From IMG/VR virus record IMGVR_UViG_3300023440_000323, positions 1 to 21,735 of that record: a stretch of 21,735 nucleotides of DNA, one strand, 5' to 3'. Shown piece after piece: positions 1 through 10,534 of this stretch. The notes below the pieces were generated by a model. The model saw nothing but the letters and a program-made list of their open reading frames with translations. It ran no database searches and was not told the DNA's origin. Made by a program: the position numbers and the translations under genes. The DNA comes from a virus. Position 1 is the stretch's first letter. Every line of letters begins with the position of its first letter.

Positions 1-47
1 GTCCTCCACGGTTGGTTTTGCAACTCCATGGAATACCAGAATGGACC

Positions 48-77
48 GCCCCTGCCGGGGCATGCCCCGGCAGGGGC
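48..77. repeat. Perfect 30-bp GC-rich palindrome
   Basis: Arms 48-61 and 64-77 are exact reverse complements, and the central AT completes an uninterrupted palindrome. No T-run follows on either strand, so it does not look like an ordinary rho-independent terminator. It lies in the TR-to-RT spacer of the DGR, where it could fold as a strong hairpin in the TR-containing RNA or extrude as a cruciform. A terminator-like or protein-binding role is the alternative. The palindrome is seen directly; its role is inferred. Confidence 0.85.
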
Positions 78-164
78 GCACAGCGCAATCTCCAACAAAA
101 TTTCCAGACGTCAGGTTACAGTACCAATATTTCGTCGTAAATCCCCCCAACTCTCTTCACGGCT

Positions 165-207
165 GGCCGCCCCTGATGTTCGCGCAAGCTACCAAAAAGG
201 GGCGGCC
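165..207. repeat. Inverted repeat, 10-bp stem, in the DGR spacer
   Basis: Positions 165-174 pair with 198-207 without mismatch, enclosing about 23 bases. On the minus strand this hairpin would lie about 85 bases after the end of TR in the same transcript. No T-run follows. It is a candidate structural element of the DGR RNA, but a 10-bp GC-rich inverted repeat can also arise by chance in GC-rich DNA. Confidence 0.5.
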
Positions 208-290
208 TGTCGATTTCGCCGCAAGGCAGGACAAGAACATCCCTGTGGCTCCACTATTTCCTTTCCTGGAATTTGAGGGGAAGCCATAGT

Positions 291-397
291 CGGACCGGAA
301 CCCCACGTTGTTGTTCGCGTTCGTCCGATAGTTGTTCAGGTTCGCGGACCAGACGCCGGCGATCGAGCCGTTGCCCCAGTTGCCGCCAGAGATCATG
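291..397 (-). other. DGR template repeat (TR)
   Basis: This 107-bp segment matches 844-950 at a constant offset of 553 bp with nine mismatches: at 309, 314, 333, 342, 363, 371, 381, 393 and 396. Every mismatch is a T on the plus strand, which is an A on the TR coding strand. By my count 23 of the 107 positions are such adenines, so the pattern is very unlikely by chance (about 1e-6 if mismatches were random). The adenines are concentrated in AAC codons, as is typical of DGR templates. The segment abuts the avd gene, whose stop codon (393-395) lies inside the TR 5' end. TR is expected to be transcribed and copied by an error-prone reverse transcriptase into VR, while remaining unchanged itself. 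Confidence 0.96.
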
Positions 398-803
398 ATG
401 ATGCCTTGCCCTTGTCCGCCTGTATCCAGCCGCCGATCATGCGCCCAAACTCGTCCACGAGGTTGCTTATGGCGATGTATCGATGTGCCGAAAGCAGGCG
501 AACATCTTCATCTGGCGATCGACCATCCTTGAATCCGAGATAGCCGAGCTCATTCGCCAGATGCAGCTGCATTCGCAGCTGTTCATGCGCGATATCGAGA
601 TTCACGAGAGTCGTTTTCTTGTGATATCTCTTCTGCGCTTCCACCATCAGGTCATAGACCCTGTAGGCGGTATTTCGGATTCGCGAGCTGAGCGCATACC
701 GCTCGTGACGAGGAAAGTGGTTCAGGTAGATGTTCAAAAGCTTCATGAGCTCGATGAATTTCCTGTTCATGTTGGCCTCGGCGTGAATGCTTCGGTTGAT
801 CAT
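393..803 (-). CDS. avd: DGR accessory variability determinant Avd (four-helix bundle protein)
   Basis: This 136-residue protein is helical throughout, with many basic and hydrophobic residues, and resembles the Avd family. Recognisable stretches are FPRHERYALSSRIRNTAYRV near residues 30-49, an ELGYLGF segment in the middle, and LSAHRYIAISNLVDEFGRM near the C-terminus. In known DGRs, Avd forms a positively charged barrel-like pentamer that binds the reverse transcriptase and the TR RNA and is required for cDNA synthesis. Length agrees with the family (about 110-135 residues). The gene begins 23 bp after the stop of the variable protein gene and ends inside TR, the usual VP-avd-TR-RT order. The ATG at 803 is preceded by a G-rich stretch. 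An internal Met at residue 12 (ATG at 770) is a possible alternative start. Confidence 0.93.
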   Translation of the reverse strand: MINRSIHAEANMNRKFIELMKLLNIYLNHFPRHERYALSSRIRNTAYRVYDLMVEAQKRYHKKTTLVNLDIAHEQLRMQLHLANELGYLGFKDGRSPDEDVRLLSAHRYIAISNLVDEFGRMIGGWIQADKGKASS

Positions 804-822
804 GGCCCCCGCTCGCTATCGC

Positions 823-839
823 TCACTCAGACAGAGTAA
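823..839 (-). repeat. Short hairpin just after the variable repeat (candidate DGR target hairpin)
   Basis: On the minus strand six bases (839-834) can pair with 828-823, with one G-T wobble, around a five-base loop. The hairpin begins about five bases after the end of VR and encloses the stop codon of the variable protein. In the Bordetella phage DGR a hairpin a few bases downstream of VR promotes target recognition. The position fits, but the stem is weak. Confidence 0.3.
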
Positions 840-2194
840 CAGGCGGACCGGAACCCCACGTGGTTGCTCGCGTTCGTCCGATAGTCGTTCAGGTCCGCGG
901 ACCAGACGCCGGCGAGCGAGCCGCTGCCCCAGTAGCCGCCAGAGAGCACGGCGAGGTTGCTGCGCCAGTATTCGTAAATACCGTCAACGCCAAAAAGATT
1001 GATACCAGCCGCGGACTTCCCGAGAGCATCCTTGTAGATGCCCAGGCCGGTCAGGGTGTTTCCGATGCCCGCTGTTGCCCCGTCCAACACCTGATTGGCG
1101 GCGTTGCCAAACCGTTGCCAGGCGCCCGCCGAATTGGTGATCATGGAGAGATCGGTGGCGTCGAACAATGTGGCCAGGTGCGCTGCATCGCCCCAATGAT
1201 CGGCGGCACCATTCCAGCCGGATGTAAAATCCTGCATCCTCACGGTTGTCTTGGCGACATAGAACGCCGTTGTGCCAAGCGTATCGTTGATGGCCTCGGC
1301 TGCCGTTGTGCCGGGCCTTGTCAGGCCGATACTGACCTCCCACATGTTCCCGTTCAGATCGACAACGCCGCAGGCCTGGCCGTTATGCGCGGTCTTTGCG
1401 AGATTGTTGGCGCTGCCGGTCTTGGCGCAGTTGGAATATCCGTCAGATACGAACGAAAGGCTTGCGTCGTTGACATCGCCGAGCGCGTTATTGTTGTTTC
1501 CTTTCGGGAAATTCGTGATCCCGGCCGCGTCATACCATGCGCAGTATGTAGCGGCAGTCGCAGCCTGACCGTGGGCCATCGCAAGCATCGCCAGGGCGGC
1601 ATAAATAAACCTGCTGGTGCAGAAAAACTCGCTCCCGCGCGTCTTGGCCCCATCAATGCAGGAGTAATAGGCATTTGCTGGCGCACCGTTCAGGCCGCTG
1701 ATAGGATTATGCGCCGGGGATGTTGATATGGGCAGGCCGCCCTTGATCGAGCTGGCCACGCCGGCATTGTTGCTGCACTGATACTTGTCGACAAAGAGCC
1801 CCTCGTGGTTCTGCCCGCCATCCTTGAAGGCCCGGTGCAGCGCATAGCCGGCAGCATTTGCCGCGGCCTCATCGCCAAAATCACCGACATCCTTGATGTC
1901 GATATTCAGGCCGGTGATCTTGTAATAGAATGCCGGGACATAAACCATCACCGAGCCGTCTGAATACTGGTAATTACCATAGTTGGCCGAGGCAATATCT
2001 TCGGATCCGGGCATCTTCGAGAATCCTGCCGGCAATACCGATGGAACGCCAACACCGAATCCCTGCTGTCCGGGCGTACCGATGCGATTTACAGACGGCT
2101 TGATGCCGAAACCGGCGGCAAATTGCTGATCTCCCTTCAGATTCACAACCCGGCCTGATTGCGGCTCGATGTTGTCGATCTTGATCGTACTCAT
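827..2194 (-). CDS. DGR variable protein: receptor-binding tail protein with FGE/C-type-lectin-like fold
   Basis: This 455-residue protein has an N-terminus of the phage tail-fiber type (MSTIKIDNIEPQSGRVVNLK), then a middle and C-terminal domain resembling formylglycine-generating-enzyme/sulfatase-modifying-factor proteins. Marks of that family are GLFVDKYQC near 132-140, VVDLNGNMWEVSIG at 277-290, and a C-terminal GG.W....AGVWSA.LN.YR....N..GFR segment. This C-type-lectin-like fold is used by known DGR variable proteins such as Mtd and TvpA to display variable ligand-binding residues. The last 36 or so residues (about 416-451) are encoded by VR. Residues differing from the TR translation are 416, 417, 421, 424, 427, 434, 437, 443 and 445. 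The start at 2194 has a good AGGAGA site. An enzymatic role is unlikely; host-surface binding at the tail tip is inferred from context. Confidence 0.93.
   Translation of the reverse strand: MSTIKIDNIEPQSGRVVNLKGDQQFAAGFGIKPSVNRIGTPGQQGFGVGVPSVLPAGFSKMPGSEDIASANYGNYQYSDGSVMVYVPAFYYKITGLNIDIKDVGDFGDEAAANAAGYALHRAFKDGGQNHEGLFVDKYQCSNNAGVASSIKGGLPISTSPAHNPISGLNGAPANAYYSCIDGAKTRGSEFFCTSRFIYAALAMLAMAHGQAATAATYCAWYDAAGITNFPKGNNNNALGDVNDASLSFVSDGYSNCAKTGSANNLAKTAHNGQACGVVDLNGNMWEVSIGLTRPGTTAAEAINDTLGTTAFYVAKTTVRMQDFTSGWNGAADHWGDAAHLATLFDATDLSMITNSAGAWQRFGNAANQVLDGATAGIGNTLTGLGIYKDALGKSAAGINLFGVDGIYEYWRSNLAVLSGGYWGSGSLAGVWSADLNDYRTNASNHVGFRSACYSV
844..950 (-). repeat. DGR variable repeat (VR)
   Basis: This is the 3' end of the variable protein gene, and it aligns with TR 291-397 without gaps. 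Nine substitutions are all at TR adenines and all are nonsynonymous: AAC codons of TR have become Tyr, Ser, Asp, Asp, Ser and His codons, two ATC codons have become Leu, and ATG has become Val. The last 17 coding-strand bases (860 to 844) are identical in both copies and GC-rich, fitting the initiation-of-mutagenic-homing segment. Identity ends abruptly beyond 844, and at the other end the first mismatch not at an adenine is at 951. Confidence 0.96.
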
Positions 2195-2218: not shown

Positions 2219-2587
2219 TCAGATTATCGTCCAGACGCTTCCCGGTGCGATATCAACCGTCACGCCTGCTGCTATTCCGACAGGGCCGACCGAATGCCCA
2301 TTGAAGCCGGAAGGCAGCGACAGATTACCGGTAATGACATTGTCGTTCTTGATGATTGCCCCATAGCCGGCAGCAAGCGCTGCTTGAGCCGCTGAAGCGG
2401 CTGCATCCGCTGCGCTTGCTGCCGCCGCATCACGATCAAGGGCGGTCTGAGCCCTGTCTGCGGCGGCCGCAGACGCCGAGATGGCGGCGTTTGCGGCCGA
2501 GTTGGCTGCCTCGTTTGCCTTGGTGATGACGGTGCCGGGCACGGTGCCAGCATCATTGATGCTGAGCTGCGCTATCTTAATTGGCAT
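2219..2587 (-). CDS. Short tail fiber protein with alanine-rich coiled coil
   Basis: This 122-residue protein has an N-terminal start (MPIKIAQLS), a highly Ala-rich heptad-like region at about residues 24-74 that predicts a trimeric coiled coil, and a C-terminal beta-type cap with SLPSGFNGHSVGPVGI and a closing VTVDIAPGSVWTII. Similar caps are common at the C-terminus of phage tail fiber and collar proteins. The start overlaps the end of the upstream gene by 11 bp and has a GGAGG site. It lies between the BppU-like gene and the variable protein, so it may form the shaft linking the tail tip to the variable receptor-binding protein; this role is inferred. Confidence 0.75.
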   Translation of the reverse strand: MPIKIAQLSINDAGTVPGTVITKANEAANSAANAAISASAAAADRAQTALDRDAAAASAADAAASAAQAALAAGYGAIIKNDNVITGNLSLPSGFNGHSVGPVGIAAGVTVDIAPGSVWTII

Positions 2588-2906
2588 TGGTAATATCCTC
2601 CAGCAGGTTGAGGCGGAATGTATCCGTGGAGTTCACGGCAACCCCTTCCTTGAATTCGATATCGACATCGTACAGGCCCGGTGGCCAGGTTGCGGTCGTT
2701 GCCGCATCGGCTTCGATCCTGAACAGGCCGTTTGCTGCATCGATGACTGCAATCGAGAACGTGACCTTCTGACCGGTCATATGCTTACCCTGGCAGGCGA
2801 TCACGACGCCGGTCAGGTCACGCGGCTGGGTCATCGCATCATCCGTATATGCGATGACATCCTCGCCAAATGTATCGCCACGCTTGGCGGTTACTTCATT
2901 CGCCAT
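2577..2906 (-). CDS. BppU-like tail protein, Ig-like fold
   Basis: This 109-residue protein begins MANEVTAKRGDTFGEDVIAY and contains a motif order (a D-T-F segment, then DLTGVVIACQ, then GLYDVDIEF and a C-terminal TDTFRLNLLEDIT) resembling the N-terminal domain of BppU-type baseplate upper proteins and similar small phage proteins. These domains usually anchor receptor-binding proteins to the tail tip. The ATG at 2906 has an AGGAGG site six bases upstream. It sits directly after the J-like tail-tip gene, which supports an adaptor role. The family assignment is by resemblance only. Confidence 0.65.
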   Translation of the reverse strand: MANEVTAKRGDTFGEDVIAYTDDAMTQPRDLTGVVIACQGKHMTGQKVTFSIAVIDAANGLFRIEADAATTATWPPGLYDVDIEFKEGVAVNSTDTFRLNLLEDITNAN

Positions 2907-9595: not shown

Positions 9596-10534
9596 TCAAT
9601 AACTGCTCACCTGGTTCTTGAGGACGACCGTGCACATCTGTCCGGCCACAGAGTCATAGGCCGCCTGCCAGTCGAAGCTGGCCTGGATGCCTTGCGGGCC
9701 CTGTATTTCCACTCGGGGCCGCGGCAGGTAGACCGCGTGCGCGGTGATCGTCAGGCTCACGTTGGCCGAGATCACCCACGAGAACTCCAACGAGGCGGAA
9801 CTGCCATTCAGCGCCTGGGTCATGAGGGTATTGTCCGCGAACCGCACATCGATCTTGCCAGTCAGCGCGGCAATGGAGGGATCTGCCCCGTCGATGCGCC
9901 CGTCCGAGCGGATGGTCTCGATCCGTTCGACATTGTTGGAATAGGTCAGGTCGGCCGAGACGATGTTGCCCAGCGCTGTGCCATTCCTCTTGATCGCCCC
10001 GTTGAAATGCCCGAACCGCTGCAGGGCGTAGCCCGTCGGCGTCCCGGCCGCCGTGGCGGTGGCGACGTTTTCGCCCTGCGCGACCAGCTTCACATCCGCC
10101 GTCAGCAGGCCGGAGCGCTGCATTTGCAGGCTCAACTGATCCAGCACGCAGCCTGTATACATGGCGAAGCGCGGGATCTCCGGCATCGCCACCTCGATCG
10201 CCATGCTGGGCAAGTTCCAGGAGCCGGACTTGAAGGTATGCGTCCTGTTGGTCGTCCCGGTCGTCGTCGGATTGCCGAAGGCGGCTTTCAGCCAGAAGCC
10301 GAAGGCCTCGGCGTCGAGCGGCACCTTGATGTCGCCATCCGCCGTGACCGCGTCCTTGATGGGTGCCAGCGGATCGCGGCCATATCCCAGCAGTTCCGAG
10401 GCCAGCAGGGGCTGCTCGGCTCCAAGTGAAGCGCTGGCGAAGGGCATCTGCATGAAGCCACTCGTCGGCGCTGTTCCATAGGTGGTCTCGAACGCGGCCG
10501 CCAGCTGCGACCGCGCGCCTTGTGCACGGGGCAT
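9596..10534 (-). CDS. Major tail tube protein
   Basis: This 312-residue, mostly beta-type protein lies where lambda gpV and GTA-like tail tube proteins are encoded, between the tail terminator and the G/GT chaperones. It begins MPRAQGARSQLAAAFETTYG and has TADGDIKVPLDAEAFGFWLK, VSADLTYSNNVERIETIR and a C-terminal QGPQGIQASFDWQAAYD. The ATG at 10534 has an AAAGGACGG site, similar to those of the decoration and capsid genes and indicating high expression. A second frame open across the same bases is a GC-driven shadow. Confidence 0.88.
   Translation of the reverse strand: MPRAQGARSQLAAAFETTYGTAPTSGFMQMPFASASLGAEQPLLASELLGYGRDPLAPIKDAVTADGDIKVPLDAEAFGFWLKAAFGNPTTTGTTNRTHTFKSGSWNLPSMAIEVAMPEIPRFAMYTGCVLDQLSLQMQRSGLLTADVKLVAQGENVATATAAGTPTGYALQRFGHFNGAIKRNGTALGNIVSADLTYSNNVERIETIRSDGRIDGADPSIAALTGKIDVRFADNTLMTQALNGSSASLEFSWVISANVSLTITAHAVYLPRPRVEIQGPQGIQASFDWQAAYDSVAGQMCTVVLKNQVSSY

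Follow-up and report, generated by a model that had tools for sequence, protein, structure and literature searches.

RESULTS

The window analyzed in this study is the whole of a virus record, 21,735 bases, whose head and tail module is coded on the minus strand. This module is lambda-like and of the siphophage type, with a gpA terminase, a lambda-family portal, an S49 protease, major capsid protein E, a tail tube, a tape measure, and a J-like tail protein. Toward the left end, still on the minus strand, small tail genes are followed by the variable gene (827 to 2194), avd (393 to 803), the template repeat (TR), and the end of the contig. Gene content and order bear out the proposal of the initial annotation that the siphophage tail operon ends with a diversity-generating retroelement (DGR). 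One of the small tail genes (2577 to 2906, minus strand; 109 amino acids; phrog_1084, E 1.6e-10) had been called BppU-like, a label that holds only as a weak resemblance to BppU_N, since the match to PF10651 (E 0.01; 16.0 bits) falls below the Pfam cut-off of 23.1. The other (2219 to 2587, minus strand) encodes an alanine-rich, tail-fibre-like protein of 122 amino acids (phrog_5342 tail fiber protein, E 2.2e-6). The search for a closely related annotated phage returned none, Pseudomonas phage Bise being the sole match, across part of avd, and an Rfam scan gave no match. The nearest genome match is an Amylibacter MAG with 80% protein identity. Given this match and the similarity of the contig end to Sulfitobacter and Novosphingobium plasmids (see below), the alphaproteobacterial host proposed earlier is plausible.

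The TR (286 to 397, minus strand), delineated by repeat comparison, overlaps the stop codon of avd, and the variable repeat (VR; 839 to 950, minus strand) lies at the 3' end of the variable gene; the two 112-nt repeats lie 553 nt apart. Over their full length, 11 of the 25 TR adenines are changed in the VR compared to none of the 87 other bases. In the 108-nt core (TR 288 to 395, VR 841 to 948), mismatches occur at 9/23 adenines and 0/85 other positions (Fisher p = 2e-7). Nine TR codons are AAC in the VR frame, a stop codon is unreachable from any TR codon by adenine change, and ~3.9e13 protein variants are encodable. Between the repeats, avd (minus strand) encodes an accessory variability determinant of 136 amino acids (PF22296, bAvd, E 1.5e-19; phrog_3206, "Avd protein of DGR", E 4.8e-24), a protein that many DGRs possess. 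Repeat pair, avd, and variable gene are thus where they had been placed from the letters of the sequence. By analogy with BPP-1, the unchanged 3' stretch of the VR, GTGGGGTTCCGGTCCG (844 to 859, minus strand), which is identical in TR and VR, is a candidate IMH. The BPP-1 DGR also has a DNA hairpin just after its VR; a stem of at least 6 bp with a loop of 3 to 8 nt was not found in the stretch examined after the VR of the window.

Because Pfam gave no match for the variable protein (455 amino acids; 827 to 2194, minus strand) even at E 1, its fold was predicted by modeling (AF2 pLDDT 85.5). The model, with the VR at the C terminus, matched TaqVP (Z 30.9, rmsd 2.7, 296 residues), Mtd (Z 13), and TvpA (Z 10.9), supporting the predicted C-type-lectin/FGE-like fold that had been suggested from the sequence. 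As the variable gene adjoins tail fibre genes, the protein most likely binds the host receptor.

What follows the TR is only the 5' stub of a reverse transcriptase (RT) gene (126 to 160, minus strand), namely, a GTG start, 11 codons in all, and 2 bases. The stub is identical to the RT start of a sister contig, L001, whose homology to the window stops exactly at position 126, within RT codon 12. Read through from the stub, the frame stops after 14 amino acids. The sequence in which it stops, positions 1 to 125 (minus strand), is the terminus of an IS256-family element, including the first transposase codons from about base 28. It is 97.6% identical to the end of contig L159 and similar to L158, to L160, and to Sulfitobacter and Novosphingobium plasmids; the alignments end at 125 for L158 to L160 and at 120 to 126 for four plasmids. 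The matching end adjoins a 404-amino-acid Mutator-type transposase in L160 (PF00872, E 1.5e-95) and an annotated IS256-family transposase in L161, where an 8-bp repeat, ACCAGTAG, stands at both ends of a related copy. The terminus GGTACTGTAACCTGANGTCTGGAAATT is common to four insertions. Both marks of the IS256 family, a terminal inverted repeat and an adjoining Mutator-type transposase, were found, with the window itself holding the first transposase codons only. These alignments led us to reject positions 1 to 125 as DGR or RT sequence. A 32-bp perfect palindrome (47 to 78) was likewise rejected as a DGR hairpin, being part of the IS end and present in L159 too. Insertion of IS256-family elements generates an 8- to 9-bp target-site duplication. 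The record holds one IS end only, the other lying beyond it, and the flank of that other end would be expected to begin with an 8- to 9-bp duplication of AATATTTC(G).

Judged from these alignments, the left end of the window lies within an IS256-family element that interrupts the RT gene. No RT was found in the whole 21,735-base record, which lacks the uninterrupted RT gene of a self-sufficient DGR. The cassette had been described as complete; in this record it is not, because 11 RT codons give way to the IS256-family end at position 125/126. Another phage record appears interrupted by insertion sequences as well: in L160 (2051 to 3238), the N terminus of the terminase runs, by eye, into an apparent IS3-type transposase tail.

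The sister contig L001 (4,510 bp), retrieved by avd similarity, is 95.8% identical to positions 126 to 2718 of the window (2.6 kb). The TR core and the adjoining 162 nt are identical in both, and the variable gene outside the VR is 95.4% identical (4.6% divergence) versus 88% in the VR. All 13 core differences between the two VRs fall at TR adenines (13/13; p 5.6e-11), a pattern that, on sequence grounds, is the one predicted by adenine-mutagenic retrohoming and is unlike ordinary drift. Directly after its TR, L001 carries an RT (RVT_1 above cut-off; PHROG reverse transcriptase, E 3e-97) with the motifs IGNLLSQ and YVDD and with 36% identity to Brt of BPP-1 and 54% identity to the phage Bise RT. 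Its RVT_1 domain, motifs, and identity to Brt indicate that, in the lineage to which the locus belongs, a DGR-type RT stands beside the TR. Of the DGR-type RT expected near the left edge, none is present within the record, but an intact one follows the TR in L001. Altogether, TR, VR, avd, and the sister RT confirm the locus as a genuine DGR.

A full RT is present in 89 of the 95 distinct avd loci that are followed by 1.5 kb or more of sequence; in the RTs of the retrieved loci, IGNLLSQ is exact in 118/124 and YVDD in 116/124. A conserved gene of ~138 amino acids after the RT had no PHROG match. Summed over 91 TR/VR pairs in relatives, we counted 1,422 adenine versus 56 nonadenine mismatches, a ratio somewhat flattered by a repeat finder that penalizes nonadenine mismatches more. 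Moreover, locus pairs 100% identical over the upstream 600 nt have VRs that differ at up to 21 adenine sites and at no more than one other site. Since such pairs differ almost solely at adenine sites, DGRs of this family are, or recently were, active in nature, as read from the sequences. The adenine-biased variation expected in related genomes was therefore found in L001 and in natural relatives, and its form fits mutagenic retrohoming.

Retrieval by the variable protein gave 75 loci, in which the machinery is complete in 52, partial in 10, and absent in 13, so that part or all of avd/RT is missing from 23/75 (about 30%). In some loci without machinery, e.g., L081 and L171, the variable gene stands directly before a gene resembling, by eye, the post-RT gene of other loci. 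In L093 (7293 to 7619) and L144 (7655 to 8602), in-frame deletions have removed the TR and fused the start of Avd to the C-terminal end of the RT in one open frame. The same tblastn pattern points to an avd-RT fusion in L206 (about 9661 to 10530). A C-terminal RT stub alone follows the variable gene in L083, L101, L166 (RT residues 257 to 313), and L173. Stubs of this kind suggest, at the sequence level, repeated deletion of the mutator. Some of these incomplete or fused loci may instead reflect assembly errors, or an RT that escaped detection through its divergence or distance.

Several loci deserve separate mention. Psychrobacter sp. 72-O-c holds three prophage copies of the DGR tail module in one genome (L179, L180, and L184). 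In Anaerobiospirillum, L210 and L213 have variable genes without a nearby RT, and L212, from the same isolate as L210, has a TR and an RT; diversification in trans is possible. In L019 (5889 to 5974), 21 Ns are confined to the VR, as if reads disagreed, with avd intact and no RT following. We did not count these Ns as within-sample adenine diversity, as the TR copy looks scrambled.

DISCUSSION

In DGRs, TR RNA is reverse transcribed with errors at adenines, with Avd taking part, and the cDNA replaces the VR (PMC6328139, PMC8144416). We propose that the lineage of the window works in the same way: the TR RNA would be copied by an Avd-assisted, adenine-promiscuous RT, and the mutated cDNA would then replace the VR, rewriting up to about a dozen C-terminal residues of the C-type-lectin-fold tail protein. 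In the assembled genome of the window, an IS256-family element would have inserted after RT codon 11, so that the VR of this copy could change only with RT provided in trans. It is very probable, in our judgment, that the locus is a phage DGR with the layout of BPP-1 and of the Thermus aquaticus prophage whose RT is broken by the IS, this copy probably diversifying no longer. The position of the insertion after RT codon 11 is the reason to think that the copy is probably frozen. As VR and TR show no nonadenine difference, the insertion would be recent. The same argument for recent loss has been made for other DGRs with broken RTs, one of them with an insertion element in the RT (DiGReF survey, PMC3521204).

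Other readings of the locus have to be weighed against this one. That the repeat is a mere duplicated gene end, with no DGR involved, has nothing in its favor beyond the existence of the repeat and is refuted by the adenine-only mismatches, by avd, by the sister RT, and by the pattern in 91 relatives; we give it practically no credence. It is conceivable, if rather unlikely, that the real phage has an intact, active DGR and that the IS end is an assembly join or a minority variant of a mixed population, with the RT just past the contig end. The contig does end 125 bp into a multicopy repeat, as does L159, and would seem to stop about one k-mer into the IS, again like L159; L001 shows that intact cassettes exist, and the lack of nonadenine changes between VR and TR is in line with this reading. 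However, the junction lies exactly at the terminal base of the IS, which is not expected of a random chimera, and it is this precision that favors a real insertion. Genomes with an intact RT may nevertheless coexist with those carrying the IS.

Loss of the RT here could also be combined with continued diversification of the VR in trans by a DGR carried by a second prophage of the cell. Multiple prophage copies in the genome of a relative, as in Psychrobacter sp. 72-O-c, and the distant DGR targets already known (PMC3521204) speak for such an arrangement, which we hold to be quite improbable in this case. A real IS insertion with a copy that is probably frozen thus remains our preferred reading.

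A close parallel is the DGR of a Thermus aquaticus prophage (TaqVP, PDB 5vf4; PMC6328139), which is likewise prophage borne, with the order target-avd-TR-rt, a C-terminal VR, and a target of matching fold over 296 residues (Z 30.9). It differs in the sequence of the target (22% identity), in the RT, which is interrupted in the window, and in host group. The Bordetella phage BPP-1 system (Mtd, Avd, Brt) shares the order tail gene, target, avd, TR, rt (the place of rt being taken from L001), adenine-specific change from TR to VR, a target of C-type-lectin fold (Mtd, Z 13), and an RT to which that of L001 is 36% identical. Unlike BPP-1, the window has a TaqVP/FGE-like target rather than Mtd, lambda-like siphophage head genes, a broken RT, and no hairpin seen after the VR. 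The locus had been described as unlike the Mtd arrangement, which is right for the protein family and wrong for the gene order, which equals that of BPP-1. Broken DGRs such as that of Acaryochloris marina (DiGReF, PMC3521204) also have an RT cut by an insertion element and only adenine changes between VR and TR; in contrast to these, the window holds a phage-tail DGR, an IS256-family element, and an insertion after RT codon 11.

DGRs that rewrite tails are already well known, and transposon-broken DGR RTs have been reported; the locus is ordinary in kind. What it contributes is a clean case, in a siphophage whose host is probably alphaproteobacterial, of tail diversification by a DGR, with a sister pair found in nature. 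The locus illustrates, too, that TR, VR, and avd can make a DGR look complete although its RT is cut, and that surveys starting from the RT (such as PMC8144416) miss broken copies of this kind. A broader hypothesis, possible though doubtful at present, is that the mutator (avd, TR, and RT) has time and again been put out of action or eliminated, whether by an inserted IS, a deletion fusing avd to RT, or loss of the whole cassette, while the variable gene was kept. If true, this DGR tail family alternates between "search" and "frozen" receptor-binding states, overlooked by RT-anchored surveys. With part or all of avd/RT missing from 23 of the 75 loci, one could measure at what rate variable tails become frozen in phages.

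The DGR of Pseudomonas phage Bise (OR683401, L156) resembles that of the window in avd (72% identical at the DNA level), in its RT (54% identical to that of L001), and in its TR/VR differences, 8/8 at adenines. It differs in its baseplate genes J and V, from which Bise is probably a myophage, in its intact RT, and in its target of 364 amino acids (phrog_2889). Bise has been isolated and can be cultured, and its DGR, intact and apparently unannotated, belongs to the same family; the phage offers a convenient laboratory model.
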